Below are positions 32,145 through 51,245 of a stretch of 64,000 bases of DNA, one piece after another. The translations under genes and the position numbers were made by a program. Within the stretch, counting starts at the first letter, position 1. Every line of letters starts with the position of its first letter. This DNA comes from a virus, in IMG/VR virus record IMGVR_UViG_3300030106_005509, positions 1-64,000 of that record. One strand, written 5' to 3'. Below the pieces are notes generated by a model. The model saw only the letters and a list, made by a program, of their open reading frames with translations. It was not told where the DNA came from and searched no databases.

Positions 32145-32546
32145 ATGGATGATTCTTATAACGAATTAGTTAGAAAATCTCAAAGTTACAAAGAAAACAG
32201 AGATACAAAATATAAACAAGTTTCTAAGGAAAGATTGCTAAAGATATCGCAAAAGAAAATACAAACAACTATGATTGGTGCTTTAAGCACAATTGAAAAG
32301 TACTTTGGTTTTCTTTGGGGTCATGAGACTTCCGATGGTGAATTAACACCAGAGCAGAGCCACATGAAGCAGCAGTTTGAAGAGGTTAGGGCCGAAATAT
32401 TAGATAGAGGCAATAATCAGATTAGAAACTTAGAAGCTGAATTTGTTAATTATGATATTAGCTGGTTAAGATATCAAATGAAATTACCGGTAAAGCCAGT
32501 TAATTTGGACCATGAAAATCAAGGAGATGAAGATGGCAAAGAGTAG
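32145..32546 (+). CDS. Small helical protein between the chaperone-like genes
   Basis: The 133-residue product is highly charged and helical (SQSYKENRDTKYKQVSKERL), with a central TMIGALSTIEKYFGFLWGHE segment and a C-terminal MKLPVKPVNLDHENQ. A full AGGAG site precedes it. It overlaps the next gene by 14 bases. No family is recognised. As a third helical protein in this position it may help tail assembly. Confidence 0.5.
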   Translation: MDDSYNELVRKSQSYKENRDTKYKQVSKERLLKISQKKIQTTMIGALSTIEKYFGFLWGHETSDGELTPEQSHMKQQFEEVRAEILDRGNNQIRNLEAEFVNYDISWLRYQMKLPVKPVNLDHENQGDEDGKE

Positions 32547-33489
32547 GAACAAAATTGAATCTAATGACGCAGATGGAAATAAGAAGGTCTTATACCTCAT
32601 TGATCCTGATGCAAAAATTAATAAGGAAGCACAGCTTGCTTACAACAGAGCTTTTAGAGACGCGCTACAATCTGGTGCTATTTTAAGACAAAAGCTTGAT
32701 GACGTTCTCAGAGATCAAGAAATCTGGGACGATAAGAAGCAAGAACGATACAACCAAATTTTGAAAACCTTAAATGATAATGAAAAGGCTATCAAAAAAG
32801 GCGGTATTAAACTTTCTGAAGCTAAGGATATAGCTGAAGAGATGGCTGTTGTTAGAGCAGAATTTAGAGCTTTGATCGCTGAGAGAAGTTCTATGGATGG
32901 CAACACAGCTGAGGGACAGGCAGACAACGCAAGATTCAATTTCCTTGTCTATGCTTGCACCAAAGACCTTAAGAATCAACCAGTATTTTCTAGTGTAGAC
33001 GAATACGAAGAAAATGCAACTGAGCCATACGCTCTTGAAGCAGCAAAACAGCTTGCAGAGAAAATGTACGGCTTGGACGCAAACTACGAAAACACACTTC
33101 CTGAAAATGAATTCTTAATCAATTATGGTTTTGTAAACGACAACCTTCAATACATTGATAGCGAAGGCAAATTAATCACGGCTGACGGACAGCACGTAAG
33201 TGAAGACGGCAGACTGATTGAGTGGCAAGAAGATGGGTCATTCATATATATAGATGGCGACGGAAATAAACTAACCGAAGATGGGGAATACGATGTTGAA
33301 TTTTCTCCGTTTTTGGACGACGAAGGAGAGCCTGTAGAGAAGGCTGTTTCTGAATCGGAAGAAGTCTCTGAAGAAGCTTCAGAAGAAGCATCTGACGAAA
33401 CTGAGGAAGCTGAGGAGTCTAAAGAAAAGGAACCTGCCCCAAAGAGAGGCAGAAGATCTAAAAAGACAACTGTAAACAGCAACGAATAG
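32533..33489 (+). CDS. Tail assembly chaperone-like protein 2
   Basis: The start at 32533 is set by AAGGAG (32521-32526) at six bases; the frame also opens at 32512 without a ribosome binding site. The 318-residue product has the helical domain shared with the gene at 31110 (AYNRAFRDALQSG and QEIWDDKKQE). It then has two D/G-rich turns of a repeat (YIDSEGKLITADGQHVSEDG, YIDGDGNKLTEDGEYD) that recall calcium-binding or beta-solenoid repeats. A very acidic, probably disordered tail (SESEEVSEEASEEASDETEE) and a basic end (PKRGRRSKKTTVNSNE) follow. A chaperone or tape-measure partner is inferred from position. Confidence 0.52.
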   Translation: MAKSRNKIESNDADGNKKVLYLIDPDAKINKEAQLAYNRAFRDALQSGAILRQKLDDVLRDQEIWDDKKQERYNQILKTLNDNEKAIKKGGIKLSEAKDIAEEMAVVRAEFRALIAERSSMDGNTAEGQADNARFNFLVYACTKDLKNQPVFSSVDEYEENATEPYALEAAKQLAEKMYGLDANYENTLPENEFLINYGFVNDNLQYIDSEGKLITADGQHVSEDGRLIEWQEDGSFIYIDGDGNKLTEDGEYDVEFSPFLDDEGEPVEKAVSESEEVSEEASEEASDETEEAEESKEKEPAPKRGRRSKKTTVNSNE

Positions 33490-33559: not shown

Positions 33560-36500
33560 ATGGCTAAACCGTTTGTATTAACAACACAACTACAGATACA
33601 GATACCAAACCTTAACCAAGTTGTCAGTCAGCTTAACAAGGGGTTAGGTAATGTAAATGTTCCTGTTAATATTAATATACCTAAAAATGCCAACACTCAG
33701 CTTACTAATTTAAACAAAAACGTCAAGAACGCTGGAGCCTCTGCTCGCGGTGCAGCAAAAAACTTTGACTCCATGAGAAACTCTCTTAGGGGTGCGCTTA
33801 CTTATATAGCTAAGTACGACGCCGCTAGAGAGATTTTCAATCTATTTGCACAAACACTTAGAGATGGTGTTTCTTCTGCAATAGCTTTTGAAAAAGAAAT
33901 GGTTAAGGTCAGTCAAGTTACTGGTCAAACCATGAAACAATTAAGGGGTTTGGAGCGAGAGATAACCAGAGTTTCTACAGGCTTTGGGGTCTCTTCAGGA
34001 TCTTTAATTAAAACCTCTAGGGTATTAGCTCAGACTGGTATGTCTGCTAGAGATGCTAGGATAGCTCTTGAAGCCCTCGCTAAAACAACTCTGGCCGCTA
34101 CGTTTGACGATATTACATCTACCACAGAAACCGCCATTGCTGCAATGAGGCAGTTTGGTATAGCCTCGACAGACTTAGAAAAGACGCTTGGTAAAATTAA
34201 CTCCTTAGCAGCTAACTTTGCTGTTGAGGCTGGTGATATCGGCGTAGCCATCAGGCGTGCTGGTGGTGCGTTCAAAGCTGCCGGTGGAAGTCTTGATGAA
34301 CTTAATGCTCTCTTCACCGCTGTTCGTTCTACCACTCGTGAAACAGCGGAAACTATTGCTACTGGTTTTAGAACTATCTTTACCAGAATACAAAGACCAA
34401 AAACTATACAGTTCTTAAAACAGTTAGGTATAGAACTGCAAAATGTAGAAGGTCAGTTCGTAGGACCGTTTGAGGCTGTAAGAAAATTAAATATAGCTCT
34501 TAAAAGTCTAGACCCCAAAGACGTTAGATACTCACAGATCATTGAACAGCTTGGTGGTTTCAGGCAGGTCTCTAAAGTTATACCACTTATTCAACAATTT
34601 GGTCAGGCACAGAAAGCCCTAAATGTATCTCAGCAAGGTGGTACTAGTCTTGCTAGAGACGCTGCAAAAGCACAACAGAGTCTTGCAGTCCAGTTGACAA
34701 AGGTCAAAGAAGAATACATGGCTCTGTTTAGAGAGATATTTGGCGGTCAAGGAATGCAAACCGTCATAAAGACCACGCTTAAACTAGCCTCCGCTTTCGC
34801 TAGAGTTGTAGATTCTCTTTCTCCTATAATACCTCTTATTGCAACTATAGGTGCTGCCAAGTTAGGTCAGTTTGCTCTCTTTGGAAGTCTTGGCAGAGGT
34901 AGAAAACAGGGAGGTAGAATAAATAGGTTTGCTACTGGTGGTATGGTTCCCGGAAAAGGAAATAGCGATAGCGTTCCTGCCATGCTTACTCCCGGAGAGT
35001 TTGTAATACGTAAAAGTTCTGTAAGAACAATTGGCGCCAACCGTTTGCAAAAGATGAACAGATACGGTAACGGCGGAACTGTAGAAAGAGGTCAAGTACA
35101 ACGAGTCGCCAACAGAAAAGCTTCTCTAAAAAATAAATATGATATTGGCGAAGGTGGTATTCACGATAAATACAGAGCCAAATTGACAATTAAAACTTTC
35201 GACCCCAATGATAAAGAGGTGGGTCGCAAAGCTATTGAAGCCGAAGCAAAAGAAGCAAAAGCATATGGTCAAAAAAGATATCAAGCCCTTCTTAAAACCA
35301 GTGGGGATGAAAAGAGGTCTGCGATAAGAGCTGGTGCTTTGATGCGGAAAAGATTTGGTCTTTCAGGATTCATAGGTAAAAGGACAAGTGGTCAATCTAA
35401 ATTTTTTACGTCTAAAACTCCAAGACAATCACAAGGTGTTACGAACAACCTCGTGGGAGGAATCCATGAAAGAAATGTAAGTGGATGGGCAAAGAAAAAT
35501 TACAAGAGCGCAAGAGTTGGTAAGCTTCCAGACGCAGACGGAATGGATTTTAGAGTTGGTAACAGCGGCGTTCTCATCGAAGCGAAGAGCCTAAAGAGAA
35601 AATTAAATAGAGACGAGATCATAGCAAAAGGTTTACTCGCTAAAGCCGTCAGTAAAAACTATCAAGACAAAGTTTCGCAAGATGTTAATTTAAAAGAACT
35701 TGTATATGCTGAAGCGCCAGCGAGCCTGAAAAAATCTGGGTTTACCAAGAGGAATAGAGGAGGAGGCATATCATCAACAGATACAGTTCCCGCACTCCTT
35801 ACTCCCGGCGAATTCGTAATCAATAGAAAGTCCGCAGCTAAGATTGGTTACGGCAACCTTAACAATGCAAATAGATTTGGTAAAACACCTAAAGGATTTG
35901 CTGCTGGTGGAATAGTAGGCGTACAGAAATTCAATAACGGTGGAGAAGCAAGAAGTCCCCGTCTTGGTTTAGGCGTTTTTGTTGCACTACAAACAATATT
36001 GCCACAGTTAGCAGAAGCTTTTAAATCAGCCGATGGAGAAGTTACCGATCTTTCTATGGGGCTTGACGCGGCAAGCCAAGGCTTGATGACATTTGCTACA
36101 TTGAGCTTTGCTACTGGTGATTTGCTAGAAGGTTTTGGTGGCAAAGTAAAGTTTGCTGCAACAGGCTTATTGGCTGTAGGGGCAGCTGCATTTGCTGCTT
36201 ATCAGTATGAAAAACAAAGAGGGATGGAGAGAGAGAAGCGTGCTGTTAAAAACCTTGAAGAAGGAGGTTTTCAATCTGAAACGCGAACAGCAGGTCTTAG
36301 GCGTCAATTCATAGACGCTAGGAGGCAACAAACTGAGGGTGCTGGCGGAGCTGCTGGTCGTGTAGCTGGAGCTGCTGGTGGCGCTTATGCTGGAATGAAA
36401 GCTGGAGCATTAATAGGAGGATTGACTCCAGCTGGCCCAGTTGGTGCTTTGGTTGGAGGTATACTTGGAGCTATAGGAGGAGGTATCGCTGGATATTTTG

Positions 36501-39500
36501 GTGGCGGTGCTATTGGAGAAGCAATAGGAAAATTAAACTTTGATGAAGCTGGAGCTATAAGAGAGTTTAATGAAAAAGTTAAGTCGTTAAAACTTGGCGT
36601 GTCGATAGACGGGTTAACAAACTCCTTAAAAGCTTTTTCTGAAGGAAGAGCTTCTATTGGCGCTATAGCCTCTACTGTTAGAAGCGGTATAAAAAGTCTA
36701 CAAAGAGGCTTCTTTGATGTTAGCACCGAAGAAGGTCTTGAGCGATTTAGAGGCCAACTACAAAAAACTTTACCAGCACTTTCCGAGTATATAAACAAAG
36801 CTGCATCTTCTGCAAAAAGCATGGCTGAGTTTGATGCGATCATAGGTGACGAGGCTTTAAATGCATTCTCGCAACTTAGCGGACAAAGCATTCCAGAGTT
36901 AAGAAGACAAATACAAGAAAATATAGCGCAAAGAAAGAAAAGCGCCGCTGCTCAAAAAGCAAACATAGCAGCAATTCAAGCATCAAACAAAGTCCTCTAC
37001 AGAGCAAGAGATGCTGGTACTGCATTTATGGAACTAGAAAGAAGACTTGTTTCCTTCGACAATGTAATGTCTGGTGTTGAAGCTTCTATAAACAACACCT
37101 TCTCTGGGCTTTCGATTGGCAAGATCGCTCCCAACTTTGATGACATAACTAACATATTTGATATGTCTGCCTTTACTGCTCAGGTAGATAGCCTATCAGG
37201 TGTACTTGGAGAGTCGGGACAATCTTTGGGTCAAGACCTCAAAAACTTTGCCGCCCTTAACTCTCTTCTTCCTAACATATTAACAGAAGCCGCTGGAGAA
37301 ATTGGAATTGGTGGCGCTAGAGCTTCTGAAATTATAGAGTCTAAATTAATGGCTGCTGATCCGGGAGGGATTATAGGCGCTGAGTTTAGAAGGGTTATTG
37401 CACAAAGAGTTCAGGCCATTGCCGAGATGGGTGAAGGTGGCGAAGGTAAGTTTGCTAATAGAATAAGAACAGATATTGAAGGTGTTGTAAGAGACCTCAC
37501 TAAAGGCATGTCTGAAACTGCTGAAGCTTTCCAAAAAGCTGCTCAGTTTATAGATAGTGCAAATCAAAGATTAGCTAAGGCGTACAACTTAAGAACTCAA
37601 CTTGAGTTAAAACAAGCTAGACAGCTTTATGACATTATAGGTCTTCAGGCTGAAAACGCTGAAAGAATGTCAAAGGCCAGACGCCAACCAGTCAATGCTG
37701 ATGCTGATTTAAATACGTTTAATAACCAACAAAACGCAATCTTAAGCGGAACTGCCATAAGCGGCTTGGGTTCAAGCGTAACTATAGTTTCAAACGAATT
37801 TAACAGGCTAAAGCAAAGAATAAAAGAAAGTGATGCTGCACTTGCAAATCTCGGAATTGCAGCAGATTCTAGTGGTGACCTGTTAGAAAACAATAGAGCT
37901 TTAATTGACGAAAACGCAGCTCTAAAATCGCAATTTGAAAAAACAAAACAAGTTCTTGAGAACTATGCTAACGTACAAGCTAGAGTAGCAAAAGTTCAAG
38001 AAGAAATTGCAAATGCTCAAGCCAGACAAGATAAAGCAAAAGCTGTAGCTGAAAATATAGCCTTTGGTACAGATCAAGAAAGACTAAAAATCTTTAGAAG
38101 CTTTAAAGCCGCAGAAATTGTGGCTTCTAGAGGTCTAGCAGCCTTACCTCAACAATTTAGAGGCGATGCTAGGAACATGTTATCACAGTTTGCTGATGCT
38201 CCAATATTTGGAGGGAAAACAGGTCAGCAGATACTAGACCGAGAAACCGCCAATCTGTTTAAGCATTTTCCACCTAATATAAGAAAAGCTTTAATGGCGG
38301 AGTTTGCAGACGCAAGAACAGATGAGCAGAAGTTCTTAGATAGGCTAGACAAGATTCAGCAAGACGCTGTAAAAGCTCAATTTGCTTTCCTTGAGGGTAT
38401 GCGTGGGGATAGCAAAGACCTAAAAGAAACCATAGCAAAGCTCAACGCAACTCTTGCAAATGACTTAAGGACTATATTCCAACAACAAGAAAATAGAGCT
38501 TTGGCAAGAGAGGTGTCTGAGAGCAAAGGCACGCTAGCTAACTCTAAAGCCCAGCTTGAAAAGTTAAAAGAAATAAGAAGTGCTGGAATACCCGTTCAAG
38601 ACCCGGCTGTTTTAAACGCTGTTAGAAGCAATGTAGCTGGCATAAAAGCTCTCAAAGACGCTAGACAAAATCTTGCTAGGTTTACGGGAGCGCAGGAATT
38701 TGGTATCAATCTTAGAAGCCAAGAGAATAGATTTACAGGCTTTGCTGCGGCTGATTCAGGCAGAGACAATCTAAAAGCCATAAAAGTGTTAGGCGCACAA
38801 CTTAGACAGCAGTTTGGCGCAGATGTTGGAAACCAATTACTACAAAAAGCAATTGATGCTCTTGCTCAATTTAGGGTAGAGAACCCAGAGGCGACAGGCG
38901 CAGAAATAGCTAAGGTCATCGGAGACACGATTAGTGGCGCTGGACTATCGGGTGCTAGTAGCGCACAAGGCATTATTGATGAAACAATGGCAAATCTTAA
39001 TGCTGCTGGTCTTGGGCCATATGTAGATACATTGGTTAACAATGTAGACATGATATCTACAGCCTTGGCAGCATTTCCAAGTGAAGCAAGTTGGTCTTCA
39101 TTAGAAGAGTCTATAATAAGAACCACAACCACTATAAACAACGCAAACGCTGCTATTGCTGCTAATAGTCCGGCGGGAGCTGTTAAGCTGGCGTCAGGTG
39201 GAAGTATATTTTCTCCACACGGAACAGACACCGTCCCTGCTATGTTAACACCCGGCGAATTTGTCGTTAACAGAAAAGCTGCTCAAAGAAACATGGGTGC
39301 GCTGTCGGCTCTTAATAGTGGAAAAACCCAATACTTAGCTGGTGGTGGTAAAGTTGGTGATTACTTTGGAACCCAAGCCGTCAGAGAGGATGGCAAAAAA
39401 GTAGAAGATGTATGGGGGTCTCACAATAAAGCTGCTGAGGCAATTGCGTCGTGGTATAAAAAACAGACTTCAAGCAGTGGTGCAGGTTCTGTATTTGACT

Positions 39501-42500
39501 CATCCAGACACTACATGGCTAAAAAGTACGCTGACCAAGACATGGCTGGAATAGCCAAAAATATACTCAAGTCAAAAGACAACGGCGATGGAATCCCTAT
39601 GAAAGACCCTCAGTATAGGGCGATGGGGGCTGGAGCTGAAAGAAAATCTTATAGTGGTAAGTATGCAAACTTACCAAAAGCCGTTAAGAATTATTTTCAA
39701 AGCGGATTCTTAGGCGTCAATGGATATAGCTATGGCCAAATGAGTGGTATAGAAGCCTTAGACTATTTTAAGTACGGCACTAGAATGTTCATGGATGGTG
39801 CTGGGAGTGGTGCAACTGGCAGGAATTACGGCGGTCAAGCTCTAGGTGAATATAAGACTATTGGTAATTTACAAAAAGCAGCAGGAAAAAGCAGAGAGAA
39901 TCAAGCAAGCAAACTATACGAAAAAGTAGTAGAGTGGGCTGAAGATAAAGCCTTTAGTAGAAAAACAATGAAGGTTGGTCTCTATAGATTCCCGCTTAAA
40001 AAATCAAAAATAGAAGCCTATGATGATCCAGACACTAATATAAGTGTTGATGGGTTCACGTACCCTAATATTCAACCGGGTGACATATTAGAGAACGATC
40101 CGCAGCTATACGATCTATTCACAGGCGGCAGTCCGGGAGGCAGAAAGCTAGGAGTTGTTTCTTCTGGCTGGGTTCCTGTTGGAGACGCATCTGAAGCTGG
40201 TGCTGGATTTACAGGAGGTCAGTTTTTCCCCGGTAATGAGCTTGAAGAAGTTTACAAGAACTTAGAAGGGTGGATATTTAACTCAGGCTCTCAATATAGC
40301 AAATTTGTTAAAGAGTATCTCACCGGAAATGCTGGAAGAACTGAACTAGCTGTTGTTCGACAGGCTTTTGGTGAGTTTGACAAAATCTGGGGTGGGCTAA
40401 AGCCTAAAAATTGGAAAACCCCAGCAGGATATAATTTAGCAAACGAACCTAGAGCTAACTTTAGTTATATCAAAGGTCTTGTTGAACGTAGACTTTCAAC
40501 AACAGAAAAACAGCTTGCTGACAGTTTTCCATTTAATCCCATGGATATAGATACTTGGGGTTCAGCAATAACTAGCAACACAAGACCTGTCGCTGCGCTT
40601 CAAGAACATTCTCAAAATAGAAGTGATCTATATCAGAAGATGAAAGACTTCTATGCGCAGTTTAAGTTTAAAAATGCACAAGACCCAACGCTTGCATTTG
40701 GTAAAGCTTTTGAAATTGTTCAAGACGATCTTAAAACTGGAGTTAAGGGATACGACGCTAATAATTTTATAAGATTAGCCAACAAAAATGTAGCAGGTCA
40801 ACAAGACGAAAAACAAAGACGCGAAGAAAAGCTAGAGTCCGTCGCAACCGCTATGAAAAACGTGAAAGGTCTCCCTACTGGACTTGGGGCGTTATCAGAA
40901 CACATAGCACAATCCATTAAAGGATTCAAAGCAGCAGGCAACTTCACTAAAATTCCTATGTACGCTAAAAGATCGTCAGCATCTTTGAGAGGTGTTAGAG
41001 ACTTCTGGCAGGCTAAGGATTGGGGCCAAGGAGAGACAAAAGCTTTATATCCTTGGTTAAGCGCTTTGGCTACTGAATTAAGCAGATGGGTAAGCGGCGG
41101 TCTTGTTACAGGAGCTGGAGCTGATAAAAAGGGCGCGTTTATAAACCTAAACGACGCCGAGGTTTTCCGTCAATTAGCAAGAATACAAGACGCTAGAAAT
41201 CAAGGTAAGAATATAGAAGAAGGCGTTGAGGTATTAAAGAAAAACCAGCTGGGAGAAATAATCCAAAGCTTTGAAGGTCCTAGCTTAATGGGTCGTATAG
41301 CGAGGATAGCCAGAAATAAACCTAATGCTTGGTATAACGTAGGTTTTGGTGATGAGTTTCCTTACTATGGAACTTTTGGTTTCGACTCTGTATCAGAAGC
41401 TGTAGGCAAACTTCAAGAAGAAGTAAAGAGAAGTTTTGAAAATACAATACTCATATACAATGAGCAATTTAAAGCAGGTCAAAGACCATTCCAAGCGGCT
41501 AATAAAAATCCTCTACTAATGGCTACGGGTGGTAAAGTTCCCCAACGTTTAGCTTCTGGTGGCGGTGTCTTCGCGTCACGAGGAACCGATACAGTTCCGG
41601 CGATGCTTACACCGGGTGAGTTTGTTGTTAATAAAGATGCGGCCTCTAAAAACAAAGGAGCTTTACAAGCTATTAATAGCGGCCAAACACAATACCTTGC
41701 CGGTGGAGGTGAAGTGCAAGCATGGAAGATGAGAGGTTTTGAATCGACTGGAGGGGTTGGTAATAAAATACTTGCAAGAAACTGGCGGGATACAGCTGCA
41801 AAATACTATCCAGATAAAGAGTTGCCAATGTTATCAACTCCAGCAAGTATAAAATATTCTGGGCCAGACAGAAACCGTGCCGCCATGTCGATGGGCCACC
41901 TCATGCGTCTTGAAGAGATAGCTGGATGGGACATACTTAAATTTCGCGAATATAGAGATAAAATACTTAATTTAAAACTTGCAGACCTTGGGGTTGATCC
42001 TTATGAAATATATCCAAAAGCGCAATCAGGAAGTATTGATCATGAATACGAAGGACAGTCACAAAAACGAGATTTACCAGTTATTTCCAAAACGGGAGAA
42101 GTAAGGCATGTAAATGCTTTAAGAGGTCAGGCGGGACAAAAGCTATTTGGGCATCTGACTAGTGATCCTGTAGCTTATCTTGCGAACTTTAAAAGAGATG
42201 ACTTTTACGAGTATGGAGCAACTGGTGGATATACCGTTAGGGATGCTAACAGATACAGTAGTTTTGATTTAAGAGACAAAGCAAATCCCGGAGGAAAATA
42301 TCGTTTGGTAGGACCTCCTAAAGGTAAGCTACCATCAATTGGAAACATATTTCAGGGTATGCGTGCAAAAGATCAAAAGGCGAGTGGCGATGCTGCTGCG
42401 CTTGCAGATAAAGAGCTAATCGCAATGCAACAGCTAGTTGCAGCTAGAGGTAGCTTCTACGGAGGCGACAGATTTGGTGATATAGAGACCAAAGCCTTTG

Positions 42501-45500
42501 CGTATATGAATAGGGACATGGATGGTGGAGAGTTTGTAGATGTACTTTCCGAAAAAGCTTTATCCAGCATACTTGCTAAAAGCGATATATCGCCTGAAAA
42601 CAAAGAGATTCTAGGTAGAAAATGGGCGAATGTTCACACAAGATTTAAGCGCCAGACTAAGCATGTCATAAGGGGAACAGGGATGGTAGATCCCGAAAAC
42701 CCCGCTTTGACAAAATACGGAGGAGGCGCATCAAGTTTCGAGAGCAAGCTAACTCAATCCTACGCAAAGCTACGTCAGCTAGCGCAAGAGAATTCGGTAA
42801 GCGAAGCTCACCGGGTCAAACTTACGTATGGAGGGATGACTCCAGAACGTATGCGTGGCGGCTTAGAAGGTGACGAAAAGGCTATTATTCCTTTAAATGA
42901 TCCAAACATACTCGATATTATCGAATCGCAAGCAGGGTCTCACTGGAGAAACAACAGCCTGCTTCATATGACACAGCTGAAAAACGATTTGGAAAAAAGA
43001 GTAGCTGGCGGCTCTCTTGGTCCTGAAGACCTGTCGGGTGCGCAAGCGCGATTAAAACAATACGAAGAGTCGATGATATGGGCTAGGTATCTTGAAACGA
43101 TTAGGATGCAGCCCGGCCAATATGGTAAATACATACTTAGAGACATAGAACAACTTTCTGAAACAAGAGCTGGAGGTTTAGACAAACAAACCTTTAACCA
43201 AATGCAAGTGCAGAAAGAGCGTCAGGCAAGAGGTAGAAGTCTTGAACTGACAGCTAAGCATTCAGGACTTTCAGGACTGGTTGATTACTTAGGCTATGCC
43301 TTTAGTCCTTTTGAGCAATTTGAAGATCAAATGCTTAAAAGCAAAGTTGCTGAAATGAGGGATCAAGGATATTCAGAATCACAGATCGCCAGTTTTGTGG
43401 GCGAGGTGAAAAAACATAACTCAATCGCTACCGCCATGACAGAAAGTGTAGCGGCTAATCCGGTGACTAAAGCTCTCGGTAAAGTTGGCATCAGTATGGA
43501 GCAAGTGCTTGGGTCTGGATTGCAAGCACTAAAAGGTTTCTACCATCTATCAGCGGGTGAAGAAAGAGCAGCAGCAATAGAGTTTGGAGCTGCGGCAGTT
43601 AGTTTTGATGAAGGTCTTAACGCTCTTGAAGCTTTGCCCGATTGGAACAAACAGCATGTAAGCAAGGTTGAAGAAAGATGGAAGGCCGAACTTGGGTTAA
43701 GCGATAAAGAGGTTGGAAATAGATCACGCGCTCTTATGATGGCTGATATAGCATCTATGTTCGTTGTGCCTCCGGGACTGCTTGCAAAAGCTGTAACGGC
43801 GCCGATAAAGCTTGGGAGGAAATTGACACCAACAGTAGTAAGAGCAGCTATTGCTACACAAAGAACCGCCAAGAAAACTCTGTTCGGAGCTGGAGAAACA
43901 GGTGCGGCTTTATCTAGAGGTGGAAAATCTGGCGCAGGTTTGCCTAAATATATTGGTGACGATTTTGCAACCGCAGGGAAGCTAACACCGAATCAAATCG
44001 CAAAAGCGGAAGTAGTCACCGATTTACGTGGGCCTGTAAGACCAAAGTCGGGTGTGCAGCATAGCGCTAATAATCCAATTAGACAAAATGCCATTGCTAA
44101 TTATAACAGGGCAAATCCCGAATCAATGGTAAGTAAATTTGATGAGCTTCCAGCATGGGCTAAGCGAGACGCTGTGAATGCGGAGACCGCAGCACGAAAA
44201 CTTGGAGAAATGCGAGATAGTCTTGGCACTTTCTTCAAAAAAATGACAGACACAGACAAATCAGTCGTAAAAGGAGGTGTAACAGCTGACGCTCTTAGTG
44301 TAAATAAAAGAACAGGTGTAGCAACACCATACAAGAAAACTCCTTTCCAAGATGCGGATGCTATGTCGGGGGTAGTGTCAAAAGCTGATGCTGATGCAGC
44401 TATAACAAAAACTCTTAAAGACGCAGAAACTACCGGAATGATTGATGATATCTCTGCGGGTATAGACGCTGATAGAGCAATAGTTAGAAAAACAATTGAT
44501 GATGCTATTGTGCGTCCTAAAATTAGTCAGCAAGAAATTGTACGAGCCAACATGGAGCAAACTAGGATACCTCGTCATGGAGGAATAGTTGAAGGACCTG
44601 CTGGTCCAGTTGCGTTAGACCCTAGTCAAGCCGGTTCTCGCTTTGCGACAACAAAAGCTGATGTTATCTCTGTTGGAGGTGTTGGAGACGATGTTACTAG
44701 AGGTGCTACAAAAACTACAGGTCCACACTCACGGTTCGATGCTCACCTACAGTCTCAGAAAAAATTAGCAGACATAAGGTCGCAACTTAAAGATCCAAAC
44801 TTAACCCCTGAACGAATGGCAGCGCTTAAGCGTCTTGAGTCTCGTTATAGTGGCTCTATCCAAGCAAGAAGTACAAAAGCCACCGATATCTCGGGTCCCA
44901 CAGGTCTACAAGGCACAGGATTAAGTACTCGTCGTAATGTTATTGATAGGGCAGTGGCGAGAGAAAAAGTTGTCAATAACATTGTAGAATCAGCTACGGA
45001 CAACACGATTCCAAGAGCTACCCAGACCAAATTCACTCCTGCATCCACCGCCGCAGACCCTGCGACTACAGCAAAAACAAAAACTTTTGCTGGAAAGATG
45101 AATGAAAAAGGCCGAGGGTCAATACGTAAAGAAGATTTGGATACTGTTGAGATGAGGACTAAAACAAGTCCTGATGATGCGTATATAGATCAGGCGGCTA
45201 TGCAGCAACAAGCTATTAATATACAAAAACAGTTACAACAATTTGAGGCAACTCAAGTAGCATCGACTCCAACAACTGCTGGGGGTAGAAGTGCCAAACG
45301 AGCCGCAAATCAACAGGCAAGTGATAATGCGGCAGCACTGGCAGCAAAGAGGAAGGAGCTTTATGAAGCAGCAGGCTTTGGTTCTGAAAAAGAATATAGA
45401 AAAGCTCTCGAAAAAGCCCAAGCTAATTCAATGTTTGATACATCTAAAGGAAACGTAGATGTAAGAACAGCAGATGTACAGGCAAGTGATGAAGCAATCG

Positions 45501-46801
45501 CTCTTAATCGTGACAGGAAAAGACTTTTCAACATAAGAGAGAGACTCCAAGACAGAAGAAGTTTAAGTGGTGAAGAATTACAAAGATTGGAGCAACTGGA
45601 GTCAACTTATGATAAACAAGTTAAGTACGCGAAAGGTTTACTTGAAGGAAAAATAGCACGCGGTGAACGTCTTACTTACACGCGTAAGGCAAAACAAGCT
45701 GCGGAAGCTGAAGAAATGATAACGATTTACCGTGGTCTTGGAGATGATGGTGGCGAGGCCCTTTCCAATTGGTGGACTACAGACTTAGAAAAGGCAATGA
45801 GTTTCACAGGGAGAGAATCTGGGTCTTTGGTTTCTGTCAAAATTCCAAAATCAGCTGTGAAAAAATTTGATGTTAAGAGTCTTAACGAAAGCCTTCAACT
45901 GCAAAAACAAATGGATGCTGGTGGAATTTCTCAAGATGCATTTGATGCTTTGGGGGTTTCTAAGTCTAGGTTGGAAGAGATTGAAAGAATCGCGATTGCT
46001 GCTAAGGGCCAGAAGGAGACAGATTTTGGTCTAGAAATGTTCTTCTCACAAGATTTTCTTAATCAGTTGAAAGGCTCGAAAATGAAGAGGCTTGACGTTG
46101 CTGATTTGGGTCTGGGTCCGACAGCGAAGAGGCCAAAAATGCCGAAAGGTGCGCAAGGATCTATGCCTTCCCCTGAACAGATGAAAGAGTTTACGAAGCT
46201 CAACCGTAAGGTCACTGCGGACCATTTTAAACGTAAAGAAACAATATTAGATGCGGCGAAAGATTTATTTAAGACTCAGGGATATGCTAAGGGTGGCATT
46301 GTATCTTACTTTAATTCTGGTGGACCGGCTATGGGAACAGATACGATTCCTGCAATGCTCACACCCGGAGAGTTTGTTGTAAGAAAAGCCGCTGTAGATT
46401 CTGTAGGTGTAGAAACACTTAGAGCTATAAATAATATGGGCAAAGGCTCAACAAGTTCTAAGCCTAAGAAAAGAGCTGGAGTTAACTACTTAGCTAATGG
46501 TGGTCAAGGTGAAGCCTCTGGGTTGAGAATGCCAACTCTAGATGTAAAAGACTTTAATACAGCTATAAGTAAATTTGATAGCTCTGTTGATAGACTTGAA
46601 AAAATATTCGGCAACGGCATACAAATGACGCACAATTTTGAGGACATGAATGTTATTGTAACAGTAAACGGAAACTTTGGTGATGATGACGGTGAATTAA
46701 GTAACGGAATGCAGAGAAGAATTAACAGAGAAGTTAGAAAGGGTATAAATGACTTTATAGACAGGTCATTCCCAGATATACCTAGAATGGACATAGCTTA
46801 A
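33560..46801 (+). CDS. Giant tape measure protein with embedded cargo-like domains
   Basis: The 4,413-residue protein determines tail length and is likely ejected ahead of the DNA. Residues about 80-400 form a TP901/PhageMin_Tail domain (AFEKEMVKVSQVTGQ, GVAIRRAGGAFKAAGG, TTRETAETIATGFRTIFTRI). Five motif copies of TDTVPAMLTPGEFV type, with their Asp at residues 470, 741, 1890, 2677 and 4261, divide the chain. Segment 490-735 carries a PD-(D/E)XK-like set (E637, D663, E674-x-K676). Segment 820-990 has hydrophobic helices and a Gly-zipper (GALIGGLTPAGPVGALVGGI) suited to membrane insertion. Residues 990-1870 are coiled coil. Residues 1900-2660 and 2710-4040 are large unassigned globular or helical parts. 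Residues 4053-4165 resemble an ADP-ribosyltransferase (YRG 4057-4059, WWTTD 4071-4075, E4159). It is preceded by an attenuator. At 4,413 residues it is among the long tape measures. Confidence 0.9.
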   Translation: MAKPFVLTTQLQIQIPNLNQVVSQLNKGLGNVNVPVNINIPKNANTQLTNLNKNVKNAGASARGAAKNFDSMRNSLRGALTYIAKYDAAREIFNLFAQTLRDGVSSAIAFEKEMVKVSQVTGQTMKQLRGLEREITRVSTGFGVSSGSLIKTSRVLAQTGMSARDARIALEALAKTTLAATFDDITSTTETAIAAMRQFGIASTDLEKTLGKINSLAANFAVEAGDIGVAIRRAGGAFKAAGGSLDELNALFTAVRSTTRETAETIATGFRTIFTRIQRPKTIQFLKQLGIELQNVEGQFVGPFEAVRKLNIALKSLDPKDVRYSQIIEQLGGFRQVSKVIPLIQQFGQAQKALNVSQQGGTSLARDAAKAQQSLAVQLTKVKEEYMALFREIFGGQGMQTVIKTTLKLASAFARVVDSLSPIIPLIATIGAAKLGQFALFGSLGRGRKQGGRINRFATGGMVPGKGNSDSVPAMLTPGEFVIRKSSVRTIGANRLQKMNRYGNGGTVERGQVQRVANRKASLKNKYDIGEGGIHDKYRAKLTIKTFDPNDKEVGRKAIEAEAKEAKAYGQKRYQALLKTSGDEKRSAIRAGALMRKRFGLSGFIGKRTSGQSKFFTSKTPRQSQGVTNNLVGGIHERNVSGWAKKNYKSARVGKLPDADGMDFRVGNSGVLIEAKSLKRKLNRDEIIAKGLLAKAVSKNYQDKVSQDVNLKELVYAEAPASLKKSGFTKRNRGGGISSTDTVPALLTPGEFVINRKSAAKIGYGNLNNANRFGKTPKGFAAGGIVGVQKFNNGGEARSPRLGLGVFVALQTILPQLAEAFKSADGEVTDLSMGLDAASQGLMTFATLSFATGDLLEGFGGKVKFAATGLLAVGAAAFAAYQYEKQRGMEREKRAVKNLEEGGFQSETRTAGLRRQFIDARRQQTEGAGGAAGRVAGAAGGAYAGMKAGALIGGLTPAGPVGALVGGILGAIGGGIAGYFGGGAIGEAIGKLNFDEAGAIREFNEKVKSLKLGVSIDGLTNSLKAFSEGRASIGAIASTVRSGIKSLQRGFFDVSTEEGLERFRGQLQKTLPALSEYINKAASSAKSMAEFDAIIGDEALNAFSQLSGQSIPELRRQIQENIAQRKKSAAAQKANIAAIQASNKVLYRARDAGTAFMELERRLVSFDNVMSGVEASINNTFSGLSIGKIAPNFDDITNIFDMSAFTAQVDSLSGVLGESGQSLGQDLKNFAALNSLLPNILTEAAGEIGIGGARASEIIESKLMAADPGGIIGAEFRRVIAQRVQAIAEMGEGGEGKFANRIRTDIEGVVRDLTKGMSETAEAFQKAAQFIDSANQRLAKAYNLRTQLELKQARQLYDIIGLQAENAERMSKARRQPVNADADLNTFNNQQNAILSGTAISGLGSSVTIVSNEFNRLKQRIKESDAALANLGIAADSSGDLLENNRALIDENAALKSQFEKTKQVLENYANVQARVAKVQEEIANAQARQDKAKAVAENIAFGTDQERLKIFRSFKAAEIVASRGLAALPQQFRGDARNMLSQFADAPIFGGKTGQQILDRETANLFKHFPPNIRKALMAEFADARTDEQKFLDRLDKIQQDAVKAQFAFLEGMRGDSKDLKETIAKLNATLANDLRTIFQQQENRALAREVSESKGTLANSKAQLEKLKEIRSAGIPVQDPAVLNAVRSNVAGIKALKDARQNLARFTGAQEFGINLRSQENRFTGFAAADSGRDNLKAIKVLGAQLRQQFGADVGNQLLQKAIDALAQFRVENPEATGAEIAKVIGDTISGAGLSGASSAQGIIDETMANLNAAGLGPYVDTLVNNVDMISTALAAFPSEASWSSLEESIIRTTTTINNANAAIAANSPAGAVKLASGGSIFSPHGTDTVPAMLTPGEFVVNRKAAQRNMGALSALNSGKTQYLAGGGKVGDYFGTQAVREDGKKVEDVWGSHNKAAEAIASWYKKQTSSSGAGSVFDSSRHYMAKKYADQDMAGIAKNILKSKDNGDGIPMKDPQYRAMGAGAERKSYSGKYANLPKAVKNYFQSGFLGVNGYSYGQMSGIEALDYFKYGTRMFMDGAGSGATGRNYGGQALGEYKTIGNLQKAAGKSRENQASKLYEKVVEWAEDKAFSRKTMKVGLYRFPLKKSKIEAYDDPDTNISVDGFTYPNIQPGDILENDPQLYDLFTGGSPGGRKLGVVSSGWVPVGDASEAGAGFTGGQFFPGNELEEVYKNLEGWIFNSGSQYSKFVKEYLTGNAGRTELAVVRQAFGEFDKIWGGLKPKNWKTPAGYNLANEPRANFSYIKGLVERRLSTTEKQLADSFPFNPMDIDTWGSAITSNTRPVAALQEHSQNRSDLYQKMKDFYAQFKFKNAQDPTLAFGKAFEIVQDDLKTGVKGYDANNFIRLANKNVAGQQDEKQRREEKLESVATAMKNVKGLPTGLGALSEHIAQSIKGFKAAGNFTKIPMYAKRSSASLRGVRDFWQAKDWGQGETKALYPWLSALATELSRWVSGGLVTGAGADKKGAFINLNDAEVFRQLARIQDARNQGKNIEEGVEVLKKNQLGEIIQSFEGPSLMGRIARIARNKPNAWYNVGFGDEFPYYGTFGFDSVSEAVGKLQEEVKRSFENTILIYNEQFKAGQRPFQAANKNPLLMATGGKVPQRLASGGGVFASRGTDTVPAMLTPGEFVVNKDAASKNKGALQAINSGQTQYLAGGGEVQAWKMRGFESTGGVGNKILARNWRDTAAKYYPDKELPMLSTPASIKYSGPDRNRAAMSMGHLMRLEEIAGWDILKFREYRDKILNLKLADLGVDPYEIYPKAQSGSIDHEYEGQSQKRDLPVISKTGEVRHVNALRGQAGQKLFGHLTSDPVAYLANFKRDDFYEYGATGGYTVRDANRYSSFDLRDKANPGGKYRLVGPPKGKLPSIGNIFQGMRAKDQKASGDAAALADKELIAMQQLVAARGSFYGGDRFGDIETKAFAYMNRDMDGGEFVDVLSEKALSSILAKSDISPENKEILGRKWANVHTRFKRQTKHVIRGTGMVDPENPALTKYGGGASSFESKLTQSYAKLRQLAQENSVSEAHRVKLTYGGMTPERMRGGLEGDEKAIIPLNDPNILDIIESQAGSHWRNNSLLHMTQLKNDLEKRVAGGSLGPEDLSGAQARLKQYEESMIWARYLETIRMQPGQYGKYILRDIEQLSETRAGGLDKQTFNQMQVQKERQARGRSLELTAKHSGLSGLVDYLGYAFSPFEQFEDQMLKSKVAEMRDQGYSESQIASFVGEVKKHNSIATAMTESVAANPVTKALGKVGISMEQVLGSGLQALKGFYHLSAGEERAAAIEFGAAAVSFDEGLNALEALPDWNKQHVSKVEERWKAELGLSDKEVGNRSRALMMADIASMFVVPPGLLAKAVTAPIKLGRKLTPTVVRAAIATQRTAKKTLFGAGETGAALSRGGKSGAGLPKYIGDDFATAGKLTPNQIAKAEVVTDLRGPVRPKSGVQHSANNPIRQNAIANYNRANPESMVSKFDELPAWAKRDAVNAETAARKLGEMRDSLGTFFKKMTDTDKSVVKGGVTADALSVNKRTGVATPYKKTPFQDADAMSGVVSKADADAAITKTLKDAETTGMIDDISAGIDADRAIVRKTIDDAIVRPKISQQEIVRANMEQTRIPRHGGIVEGPAGPVALDPSQAGSRFATTKADVISVGGVGDDVTRGATKTTGPHSRFDAHLQSQKKLADIRSQLKDPNLTPERMAALKRLESRYSGSIQARSTKATDISGPTGLQGTGLSTRRNVIDRAVAREKVVNNIVESATDNTIPRATQTKFTPASTAADPATTAKTKTFAGKMNEKGRGSIRKEDLDTVEMRTKTSPDDAYIDQAAMQQQAINIQKQLQQFEATQVASTPTTAGGRSAKRAANQQASDNAAALAAKRKELYEAAGFGSEKEYRKALEKAQANSMFDTSKGNVDVRTADVQASDEAIALNRDRKRLFNIRERLQDRRSLSGEELQRLEQLESTYDKQVKYAKGLLEGKIARGERLTYTRKAKQAAEAEEMITIYRGLGDDGGEALSNWWTTDLEKAMSFTGRESGSLVSVKIPKSAVKKFDVKSLNESLQLQKQMDAGGISQDAFDALGVSKSRLEEIERIAIAAKGQKETDFGLEMFFSQDFLNQLKGSKMKRLDVADLGLGPTAKRPKMPKGAQGSMPSPEQMKEFTKLNRKVTADHFKRKETILDAAKDLFKTQGYAKGGIVSYFNSGGPAMGTDTIPAMLTPGEFVVRKAAVDSVGVETLRAINNMGKGSTSSKPKKRAGVNYLANGGQGEASGLRMPTLDVKDFNTAISKFDSSVDRLEKIFGNGIQMTHNFEDMNVIVTVNGNFGDDDGELSNGMQRRINREVRKGINDFIDRSFPDIPRMDIA
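34967..35014 (+). repeat. TPGEFV motif copy 1 in the tape measure
   Basis: The segment specifies D470-SVPAMLTPGEFVIRK. It follows a glycine-rich GGRINRFATGGMVPGKG linker. This motif is known in many tape measure proteins; here it marks the N-terminal border of the nuclease-like segment. Confidence 0.85.
35780..35830 (+). repeat. TPGEFV motif copy 2 in the tape measure
   Basis: The segment specifies D741-TVPALLTPGEFVINRKS after a GGGISST linker and is followed by KGFAAGGIVG. It marks the C-terminal border of the nuclease-like segment. Confidence 0.85.
39227..39277 (+). repeat. TPGEFV motif copy 3 in the tape measure
   Basis: The segment specifies D1890-TVPAMLTPGEFVVNRKA and is followed by MGALSALNSGKTQYLAGGGK. 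It begins the first large unassigned segment. Confidence 0.85.
41588..41638 (+). repeat. TPGEFV motif copy 4 in the tape measure
   Basis: The segment specifies D2677-TVPAMLTPGEFVVNKDA and is followed by KGALQAINSGQTQYLAGGGE, closely matching copy 3. It begins the second large unassigned segment. Confidence 0.85.
46340..46390 (+). repeat. TPGEFV motif copy 5 in the tape measure
   Basis: The segment specifies D4261-TIPAMLTPGEFVVRKAA and follows the ADP-ribosyltransferase-like region. It is the last motif before the C-terminal tail. Confidence 0.85.
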
Positions 46802-46812
46802 AGGAATAACCA

Positions 46813-49290
46813 ATGGCTGATTCTTCAAAAGATCTCGGCTTAGTCATGTTTGGAAGCGTTGCTCGCATGACGGAGAGGGAGATATTTCCAAGCGGTGTCA
46901 ATAGGGAATTTGGATACTGGCGAGGAAGTGAAAACAAAAAGATCGTAAATAAGTTTAATAAGCTTTATATGCCTCTTGAGGGTAGCGGTCTGTATTCTGG
47001 TTCTCCTGTTGTAAAAGCTAAAAAAGATACTGCAAGCAATGCTAGTGGATTAAGTTGTGACCCAGAAGGTTGCGCTTGGATGTTTGATGGTTCTGATTGG
47101 TCTTTATATGAAGACCTATGTGGGTTAAGACCTACAGCATACGATGCTACTTGTGGATGCACAGAACCTCCTGAAGGCGGTGGTTTTATGGGCGACATAA
47201 AATCGACTGCATGTGTTGGCGGTGTTGGTGGAGGTGGAGGTTCAACCGCTGATGGAGACTCTGCTGGTGACGGATTTGCTGTATGGCAAAGAGCCGGAGA
47301 CCTCGTAGATATAATTGGTCAAGAGGCTATACAAGAAAGATGTCTATTCCTTTCCCAACGAGCTAATGTAAATCTTGGAAGCGGCGTTAGTCTAGCAAAC
47401 GCAAAAGGGTTTACTGTCTATTCAAAAATACTACCTAGTGGTGATATCAGTGATACAATCATCCTAGCTCAACACAAAGAAAACCCAGCAAAATTCGTTC
47501 TTGGTTGTGACTTTGATGGTAGGTTCTATATTCGTGCCGATGGAAATATAGAAGGTGCAAACACTGCTTTTACTGCTAAGTCAGCAAAGAGTTATCAAGA
47601 ATACAAATATCCTGCGCATGTAGTTGGTGTTTTTGCTTCTGGAGACTCAAAACTAAAGATATATGTAAATGGTATTAATGAGGGCGAGTCTCAGGTATTT
47701 AAAAGAGATCTAAGCGGTGCTGACAATACAGACATTATTTTAGGTAAAAGAGGTTTTGCTATATCTGAACGTGGTTACACGGGATGGGTAGATGAAGTAG
47801 GTATTAGTAGCAAGAGCTTTAGTGACGAAGAAGTTAGTCAGTTTTATAATAGCACTTTTGGCGTTACAGATATTATTAAAAGTTACTCTCCTCCTACAGG
47901 AGCTGCTTTTGACGCTGGATTATTTGCTGCTGACTTTGATGCTAAAGATAAAGACTTCATAGAATTTACCGTAGCTTCTGGTAATAGCGAAGGCGCTCTT
48001 GGTGGAGCTTTTGACCCAAATCTTTGGGGTAATTCTAATTACGCTGTATCTTCTGTGTTAAGTATTAGGATTGAAGAAGCGCCGCCAAACTTCCATCAGT
48101 TAGATACCGTAGCTGTTGATGTGTGGGTTGAAAATGCCACAAACCATCCAAGCGGAGCAAAATTCACAGCAGCGCTAGTGCATAAAGATGCAGAAAAACC
48201 TATCAATACAAGCAGGAGTCTCAATTGGTACGCTAGTGGCGTAATGATTCCTTCTGGAGATAGACAAAAAATAACTTTTGAAGCGCCACTAAATGGGTCG
48301 GATACTTTCTTCCCAGACGGCGCTATCCCTTTCAAAGATGATTTTGGAAAACATAATTTAGACCTTACAGTATTCTATCCAGAGTACGACCATCCATACG
48401 ATGCTGAATTCAAAATATATTCTACCAAAATAAGATATACGTCGTTTGACAGGTATCTTGGATTCAACAACATTGACGGATCTATATTAAATGGAGCGTC
48501 TTTAGGATTAAATAACGGTCAAGACCAACCCCTGTTTGTGGATGGGGGTTTGAAGGCTAAGGCTTCTGGTGATTTGAGACTTACTGTGTTTGCAGACAAA
48601 GCAGCACAGAGTATGCCTTTGGTTTTAAACCAAGATGCTAAAACTAGCATGGGCGATACGGGTCATGGGTATCTAACTGCAAATGGCGCGGTCTTGATAA
48701 ACCAGAATATGAACCTTAGTCTTCTTGGCGCTATTGAAAGAATGACTAAGACGTTGTTTATTGGTGGTAAAGTATTCACCGTAAACAACAACTTAAATTT
48801 GGAAACTAAGGGTGGTGTTAATATATATCCATATATACAAAAAACACTTCCCATCTTAATTGCTACAGAGCCGGGTTCTGGAATTTTTGAAGCTAGCATG
48901 AATCTAGCTCTCCCCAAAGTCAATCCGGCTAAGTTAAATGTTGACTTCCCTCAGTTTATTGAGGGTGAGCGACCAGTTGCAACAATGCCTCTGTATGTAA
49001 AAACAGCAGAGAGTGGAGTTACAACATTCCCGATATCATTATTAGGACCTTCTGTATATAAGAAGAATGAATCTATGAATCTTTATATGCAACCTGATAG
49101 TCCACAATTTTTAGCCAGAGGAAAGAGGCTTTCTGGGTCTCCCACAGTTAAGCAAAATAGTAATTTTGATTTAGTAACAGTAGGTAAAGCTACTTCAAGT
49201 GGAACTATGGATTTAGTGATAACATCCGTAAAGGCTAGTGGTAATTGGAATACAACTTTATACAGTCAAGGTTTTAGAACTACAGATTAG
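46813..49290 (+). CDS. Tail protein with LamG/concanavalin-like domain
   Basis: The 825-residue protein contains a LamG-type lectin sandwich at about 185-345 (FTVYSKILPSGDISDTIILA, then LKIYVNGINEG, ADNTDIILGKRG, GWVDEVGISSKSFSDEEVSQ). This fold binds sugars. The N-terminal 150 residues hold a Cys cluster (LSCDPEGCAWMFDGSDWSLY, later CGCTEPPEGGG). The C-terminal 260 residues consist of short strand repeats (MNLSLLG, LNLETKG, MPLYVK, MNLYMQP, MDLVITS) resembling those of the protein at 21699. It directly follows the tape measure, the place of distal tail proteins. A carbohydrate-binding distal tail component is the best reading. Confidence 0.68.
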   Translation: MADSSKDLGLVMFGSVARMTEREIFPSGVNREFGYWRGSENKKIVNKFNKLYMPLEGSGLYSGSPVVKAKKDTASNASGLSCDPEGCAWMFDGSDWSLYEDLCGLRPTAYDATCGCTEPPEGGGFMGDIKSTACVGGVGGGGGSTADGDSAGDGFAVWQRAGDLVDIIGQEAIQERCLFLSQRANVNLGSGVSLANAKGFTVYSKILPSGDISDTIILAQHKENPAKFVLGCDFDGRFYIRADGNIEGANTAFTAKSAKSYQEYKYPAHVVGVFASGDSKLKIYVNGINEGESQVFKRDLSGADNTDIILGKRGFAISERGYTGWVDEVGISSKSFSDEEVSQFYNSTFGVTDIIKSYSPPTGAAFDAGLFAADFDAKDKDFIEFTVASGNSEGALGGAFDPNLWGNSNYAVSSVLSIRIEEAPPNFHQLDTVAVDVWVENATNHPSGAKFTAALVHKDAEKPINTSRSLNWYASGVMIPSGDRQKITFEAPLNGSDTFFPDGAIPFKDDFGKHNLDLTVFYPEYDHPYDAEFKIYSTKIRYTSFDRYLGFNNIDGSILNGASLGLNNGQDQPLFVDGGLKAKASGDLRLTVFADKAAQSMPLVLNQDAKTSMGDTGHGYLTANGAVLINQNMNLSLLGAIERMTKTLFIGGKVFTVNNNLNLETKGGVNIYPYIQKTLPILIATEPGSGIFEASMNLALPKVNPAKLNVDFPQFIEGERPVATMPLYVKTAESGVTTFPISLLGPSVYKKNESMNLYMQPDSPQFLARGKRLSGSPTVKQNSNFDLVTVGKATSSGTMDLVITSVKASGNWNTTLYSQGFRTTD

Positions 49291-49298
49291 GTGACAAT

Positions 49299-51236: not shown

Positions 51237-51245
51237 GGGTAAACA

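Follow-up and report, generated by a model that had tools for sequence, protein, structure and literature searches.

This locus raises the question of whether a phage tape measure can carry exchangeable enzymes and whether a short repeated motif marks the borders of what is exchanged. Tape measures are usually viewed as rulers with an occasional cell-wall enzyme. The window, the whole stretch of DNA that was analyzed (64,000 nt of a virus record of 136,411 bases), contains an ORF at 33560-46801 (+ strand) whose 4,413-residue product has five copies of a TPGEFV motif. An earlier note on this DNA proposed that these copies divide the protein into cargo segments that the phage injects as parts of its tape measure.

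Identity and relatives of the tape measure protein

By homology, the 4,413-residue protein is a phage tape measure protein (TMP). A Pfam scan gave a PhageMin_Tail match at residues 135-333 (E 7.7e-26), the protein matched PHROG tail length tape measure families, and its very long ORF lies among tail genes and encodes a hydrophobic stretch. The late-gene block around it includes phage genes for terminase and tail fibres, and tail tube and chaperone genes upstream of it were named by eye. Two overlapping small ORFs directly upstream (window 32145-33489) resemble, also by eye, a tail chaperone pair. Downstream, at 46813-55661, are three large ORFs (825, 645 and 1,471 aa) without a PHROG match, and a Cys-rich open frame (57509-64000, more than 2,164 residues) follows immediately on the tail genes and continues past the right end of the window. 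Searches of window positions 1-64000 for tRNA and Rfam families found none.

The best annotated phage match to the TMP was SPbeta YomI, with 24% identity over the N-domain only, so that no cultured phage counts as close. Scanning IMG/VR for the motif DNA yielded at least 119 loci. Eleven proteins from these loci aligned to residues 1 to about 505 of the window TMP, mostly with 44-52% identity, and most of these alignments ended within about 40 residues of motif 1. N-domain alignments retrieved 473 and 421 relatives from IMG/VR and 14 from GTDB contigs. After removal of duplicates, the working set contained 105 TMPs including that of the window (104 relatives), 69 of which were complete. Whereas the motif scan and the N-domain alignments yielded relatives, IMG/VR pattern scans with the whole TMP or with its block X4 gave none, and a scan with the gene downstream of the TMP also gave none.

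The TPGEFV mini-domain

The five copies of TPGEF(V) in the window have an Asp seven residues before the motif Thr, at residues 470, 741, 1890, 2677 and 4261. Copy number, Asp positions and protein length match the earlier note exactly, and its block lengths are correct as well. A degenerate DNA pattern for TPGEF detected no sites in the 136-kb record beyond these five, and a reversed control pattern gave 0 matches; five copies of this string cannot be due to chance. At the DNA level, the copies form direct repeats of 55 nt with 69-80% identity to the reference copy. The motif regions, with the start of each core, are:

34928..35071, + strand: motif 1 mini-domain, core TPGEFV at 34988; hairpin and two helices (pLDDT block means 83-90, 72 at the end of helix 2)
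35768..35875, + strand: motif 2 mini-domain, core TPGEFV at 35801 (pLDDT about 90)
39218..39343, + strand: motif 3, core TPGEFV at 39248 (motif sequence)
41579..41704, + strand: motif 4, core TPGEFV at 41609 (motif sequence)
46331..46456, + strand: motif 5, core TPGEFV at 46361 (motif sequence)

AlphaFold2 modelled the motif, with a pLDDT of mostly 83-91, as a beta-hairpin that has TPGE at its turn and leads into two short helices. The same fold was modelled at motif 1 and motif 2, and the sequence between them was largely poorly modelled. At these two borders the models thus contain separate folded mini-domains and not a continuous helix, in line with the division into blocks proposed earlier.

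Position and flanks of the motif are conserved among relatives. Motif 1 was located at residue 440-500 in 95 of 102 TMPs, and in 39 of the 47 complete TMPs with at least three motifs, 135-159 aa separate the last motif from the C-terminus. The flanks are position-specific, with a consensus of about GxGNxDTVPAMLTPGEFVIRKSSV for motif 1 and about GTDTVPALLTPGEFVINKKSAQxIGYGNL for motif 2. A match at residue 3331 of one relative (L209) was rejected as a false motif.

The TPGEFV element is widespread in tape measures; what is new is that it serves as a joint for cassettes. It was also present in 96 cultured-phage records, and among the matches listed (Gordonia, Nodularia and others) the gene was a tape measure gene wherever annotated. 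Neither TPGEFV nor LTPGEF was found as a string in any paper of the searched open-access literature. Two large proteins, L095 (4,847 residues) and L021 (2,621 residues), have five motif copies each and were unmatched by the window N-domain in the available stretch, so the multi-motif architecture may extend beyond the TMP family of the window.

Some occurrences in cultured phages differ in setting. In two T4-like cyanophages, proteins beside baseplate hub genes (L290, 4243-7095; L291, 4005-6305) have one motif copy each, and one of the motif proteins of these phages is annotated as a lysozyme and virion protein. The tape measure of Nodularia phage kac65v151 (L299, 6349-16197; 3,282 aa) has two motif copies 69 residues apart and a long, low-complexity N-terminal region; this cultured phage is a possible test system.

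Conserved backbone

Related TMPs share a backbone in the order N-domain, motif 1, block A, motif 2, membrane stretch and core, and motif 3, with a C-tail after the last motif. Its conserved parts in the window are:

33560..34939, + strand: conserved N-domain, residues 1-460, with PhageMin_Tail at 135-333 and a hydrophobic stretch at 407-444; 44-52% identity in most of the 11 relatives
36401..36514, + strand: hydrophobic Gly/Ala-rich stretch, residues 948-985, a membrane-active candidate
36554..38875, + strand: conserved tape-measure core, residues 999-1772, found by iterated HMM as a collinear match in 59 of 76 TMPs
46457..46771, + strand: conserved C-tail, residues 4300-4404, after the last motif; tail HMM match in 49 of 76 TMPs

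Between any two relatives the N-domain was on average 98% alignable, and the stretch from motif 2 to the core was poorly alignable overall (9%). Of 61 complete TMPs, 60 have a hydrophobic stretch in the interval from motif 2 to the core. The membrane-active and coiled-coil block between motifs 2 and 3 had been counted as cargo in the earlier note. Because the conserved core and the hydrophobic stretch both lie there, this block belongs instead to the tape-measure backbone.

A nuclease-type slot after the N-domain

The block between the first two motifs is the first variable part of the protein:

35072..35740, + strand: cassette A, between motifs 1 and 2, with a PD-(D/E)XK-like signature at about 35456-35587, GGIHERN..DGMDFRVGNSGVLIEAK

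In the window, block A (GGIHERN...DADGMDFRVGNSGVLIEAKS) has the signature residues G-E-D-EAK and thereby the PD-(D/E)XK catalytic signature (E ... D ... (D/E)xK). The pattern G-x-x-[FY]-E ... D-[FGL] ... [DE]-A-K was found in 49 of 61 real A blocks versus about 14 of 61 shuffled ones. In an alignment of 42 relatives (A6), whose members were chosen with a pattern related to the nuclease signature, mean identity was 19% and only G51, E55, D74 and K104 were invariant; in a further alignment (A7), G, E and D were invariant. The window block matched no known enzyme family. Profile searches of the PDB with A6 and A7 returned no nuclease of the PD-(D/E)XK fold, and hhalign of A7 against six VRR_NUC proteins was not significant. 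In the AlphaFold2 model of cassette A (A4 model), the nuclease part had a pLDDT of 33-50, and good folding was confined to the motifs and one helical stretch; Foldseek gave no matches with this model. Thus, of the nuclease-like block claimed for this segment, the signature stands, whereas Pfam profiles, PDB, hhalign and AlphaFold2 did not confirm the fold. We regard cassette A of the window as a putative nuclease-type domain, PD-(D/E)XK-like by signature only.

A different signature was found in six relatives, not including the window. Near the same place in block A they have DGD[ST]...R....D..E, a pattern expected 0 times in shuffled sequences. A profile of these six blocks matched almost only staphylococcal nuclease and thermonucleases in the PDB (best E 0.002), with the catalytic D, R, D and E in place. 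D, G, D, R, D and E are invariant in these staphylococcal nuclease-type (SNase) blocks, D, R, D and E being so although the sequences are otherwise 18-42% identical to the first of them. The Pfam SNase family gave 0.0061 in L213 and 0.033 in L178, neither of which reaches the curated cut-off.

Exchange at motif borders

Homologues exchange block A at the DNA level, and extra blocks come and go between motif copies, which agrees with the claim that the motifs border swapped segments. In block A exchanges, flanking DNA is about 83-94% identical; similarity ends 48-95 nt past motif 1 and returns 41-59 nt before motif 2. For instance, L140 and L144 are 94.5% identical until 48 nt beyond motif 1 and, starting 48 nt ahead of motif 2, 92.4% identical, with unalignable DNA between. 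Edges lie at +95/-48 nt in L145/L151 (94% and 92% identity), at +83/-41 in L157/L208 and at +82/-59 nt in L178/L191 (flanks 83-88% identical). L145 and L033 also combine near-identical flanking DNA with an unalignable cassette A. Since L178 has the SNase signature and L191 the PD-(D/E)XK signature within such similar flanks, nuclease-type domains with either of two unrelated signatures occupy the slot, one replacing the other in relatives. L163 and L174, with backbones only 42% identical, share a cassette stretch of 67% identity that ends 45 aa past motif 2 in both. Exchange edges were off the motifs in L187/L206, where differences extended as far as 1,034 and 377 nt beyond motif 2.

The same tendency was observed across the relatives. 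Among pairs with N-domains at least 65% identical, left edges fell 15-60 aa past the motif in both partners in 273 of 298 pairs, and resuming right edges fell within 60 aa of the motif in both partners in 114 of 138. Cassettes A were unalignable in 53 of 92 pairs whose N-domains were at least 70% identical. HSP ends were located at motifs in both partners in 1638 of 3628 cases versus 41 for random positions, an enrichment of about 40-fold; without motif 1, the figures were 245 of 1546 versus 15.5 (about 16-fold). A first count of large indels (127 of 209 events at motifs versus 0.8 expected) was inflated by motif-to-motif alignments and is not main evidence. On the N-domain tree, SNase tips are scattered singly, with 5 changes for 5 tips, which fits exchange and is a weak test with so few tips; presence of X blocks required 8 changes for 17 tips. 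For block A and the extra blocks, edges fall at the motifs and the borders were modelled as mini-domains, so the proposed cassette borders hold for them; they do not hold for the block between motifs 2 and 3, which is backbone.

Accessory cassettes between the core motif and the last motif

Two large blocks in the window lie between the motif after the core and the last motif:

39383..41488, + strand: accessory cassette X3, 702 residues with 13 Trp; matches no other cassette, Pfam, PHROG or NCBIfam; composition unlike the backbone
41744..46240, + strand: accessory cassette X4, 1499 residues; absent from the nearest relatives L125 and L130
45716..45808, + strand: YRGLG..WWTTDLEKA stretch at the end of X4, called ART-like in the earlier note (strings only)

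Gain and loss of these blocks can be followed in relatives. In L125 and L130, the first block is present, X4 is absent and the tail comes after a motif matching motif 5. At the empty sites of L144 and L126, a single motif aligns to both motif 3 and motif 5 of the window. L223 has an extra 324-residue block between motifs, and L221 has one motif at that place. Among 62 complete TMPs with the core, 17 have extra blocks (one in 14, two in the window and L221, three in one), and 45 have a single motif or none at this site. The 24 X cassettes, some of them from TMPs cut by a contig end, fell into 20 sequence clusters without detectable mutual similarity.

Tryptophan accounts for 1.35% of residues in X cassettes versus 0.06% in the core, a difference of about twentyfold, and aromatic content is twice that of the core. 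With aromatic and Trp contents above the core, the X cassettes look globular rather than ruler-like and are probably globular. Comparison of X cassettes with Pfam and PHROGs gave no convincing family match, and the two tested by tblastn against cultured phages gave no match. In the two large window blocks, which the earlier note described as probable effectors, comparison with Pfam and PHROGs showed no recognizable effector domain. The ART-like domain proposed for the end of X4 was backed neither by Pfam, NCBIfam or a PDB sequence search nor by AlphaFold2 or Foldseek; AlphaFold2 places a helix at the YRG/WWTTD stretch, with low confidence.

Proposed explanation and alternatives

We think it somewhat probable that the TMP consists of a conserved backbone and of cassettes, the nuclease-type cassette A included, that are exchangeable at the TPGEFV mini-domain and are carried and ejected with the tape measure. 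Cassette A would follow directly after the N-domain, PD-(D/E)XK-like in the window and most relatives and SNase in a few. One to three further, unrelated cassettes could be inserted between the motif of the core and the C-tail, two in the case of the window (about 700 and 1,500 residues). Conserved motif-coding DNA may offer recombination a tolerated joint, because the mini-domain would insulate its neighbours. As part of the tape measure, the cassettes would then occupy the tail tube and be expelled during genome ejection, and enzymes leaving the tube in this way might reach the envelope or the cytoplasm as part of the TMP. In lambda, the TMP is found at the inner-membrane ManYZ complex during injection (PMC13190303).

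The variable blocks could instead be structural, setting tail length or filling the tube, with the nuclease-like domain binding or organizing DNA and the motif acting as a structural bead in ordinary mosaicism of a non-essential stretch. Tail length is indeed set by tape measure length, X blocks have no recognized enzyme domain, and many proteins without cassettes have a single motif copy. However, A and X blocks exceed the backbone in aromatic residues and Trp, the same slot is occupied by two unrelated nuclease signatures, and the invariance of the SNase D, R, D and E in otherwise divergent sequences appears to suit catalysis better than structure. We therefore hold a structural role to be fairly unlikely. 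Less probable still is that the motifs are processing sites, each cut by a protease that frees effectors in the host or at tail assembly. The tape measure of lambda, gpH, is trimmed near its C-terminus, and the place of the last motif in most complete relatives with at least three motifs recalls this; cleavage within the Gly-rich motif flanks is possible. Yet the motif was modelled as a folded hairpin-helix unit, which would be unlike a simple cleavage loop, and a Pfam scan of the whole TMP found no protease domain.

Cassette A might also be a selfish homing-type element whose nuclease copies the cassette into the TMP gene, with motif DNA as the homing site. PD-(D/E)XK homing enzymes exist, but the nuclease activity of SNase is non-specific. 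Homing elements often target tape measure genes, and nucleases are found at exchange boundaries (PMC10448857). Against such an origin, block A is in frame within one continuous ORF, the slot is nuclease-type in most relatives by pattern and not sporadically, and X blocks without a nuclease signature behave alike at their borders; we consider homing very improbable. To the preferred reading, exchangeable cassettes on a conserved backbone, a broader proposal may be added, which we advance tentatively and at rather less than even confidence: the TPGEFV mini-domain would be a general TMP joint at which aquatic phages load and swap effector enzymes, a polymorphic multi-cargo delivery in which X cassettes would represent new families of injected effectors.

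Significance

These sequences suggest that a tape measure can serve as a modular vehicle that takes enzymes into bacteria. A large family of uncultured phages retains a nuclease-type TMP slot with changing content, and a second slot accepts blocks that are unrelated to one another and can be as long as about 1,500 residues, the same small domain serving as the joint throughout. Should the blocks reach the host, tape measures would hold a so far unused inventory of injected phage effectors, open to automatic parsing by means of the motif, and the joint would be a natural cargo-loading site for phage tails or tailocins. The finding also raises the question of whether the tail grows with each cassette or whether cargo is not counted by the ruler.

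Comparison with known systems

Enzymes embedded in known tape measures mostly target the cell wall. Like SPbeta YomI, T5 pb2 and mycobacteriophage TMPs, the window TMP is a long tail protein with a PhageMin_Tail-type N-domain, a hydrophobic stretch and enzyme-type domains inside the tape measure, the last by signature in the window. Unlike in these proteins, the window family has a nuclease-type slot, and copies of a mini-domain form the borders where blocks swap. For T5 pb2, both muralytic and fusogenic activity are described (cited in PMC10038345).

Polyvalent proteins (Iyer et al. 2017, PMC5512222) likewise combine several domains in one phage polypeptide and are thought to be delivered with the DNA. 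That study does not mention tape measures and attributes the separation of parts to metallopeptidase domains; a Pfam scan of the whole window TMP found no such domain, which sets it apart from polyvalent proteins. Polymorphic toxins (PMC3482391) also have a conserved backbone with cassette-like variable domains, but in the window TMP the variable domains are internal and the C-tail is conserved.

The nearest precedent is provided by Sle1-type effectors of actinobacterial contractile injection systems (CIS). Sle1 is tape-measure-related, resides in the tail tube and has an interchangeable functional domain, one version of which presumably acts on nucleic acids (PMC13277306). Sle1, however, is a CIS cargo with its variable part at the C-terminus (PMC13277306), whereas the phage TMP of the window has internal cassettes between motif copies and a conserved C-tail.
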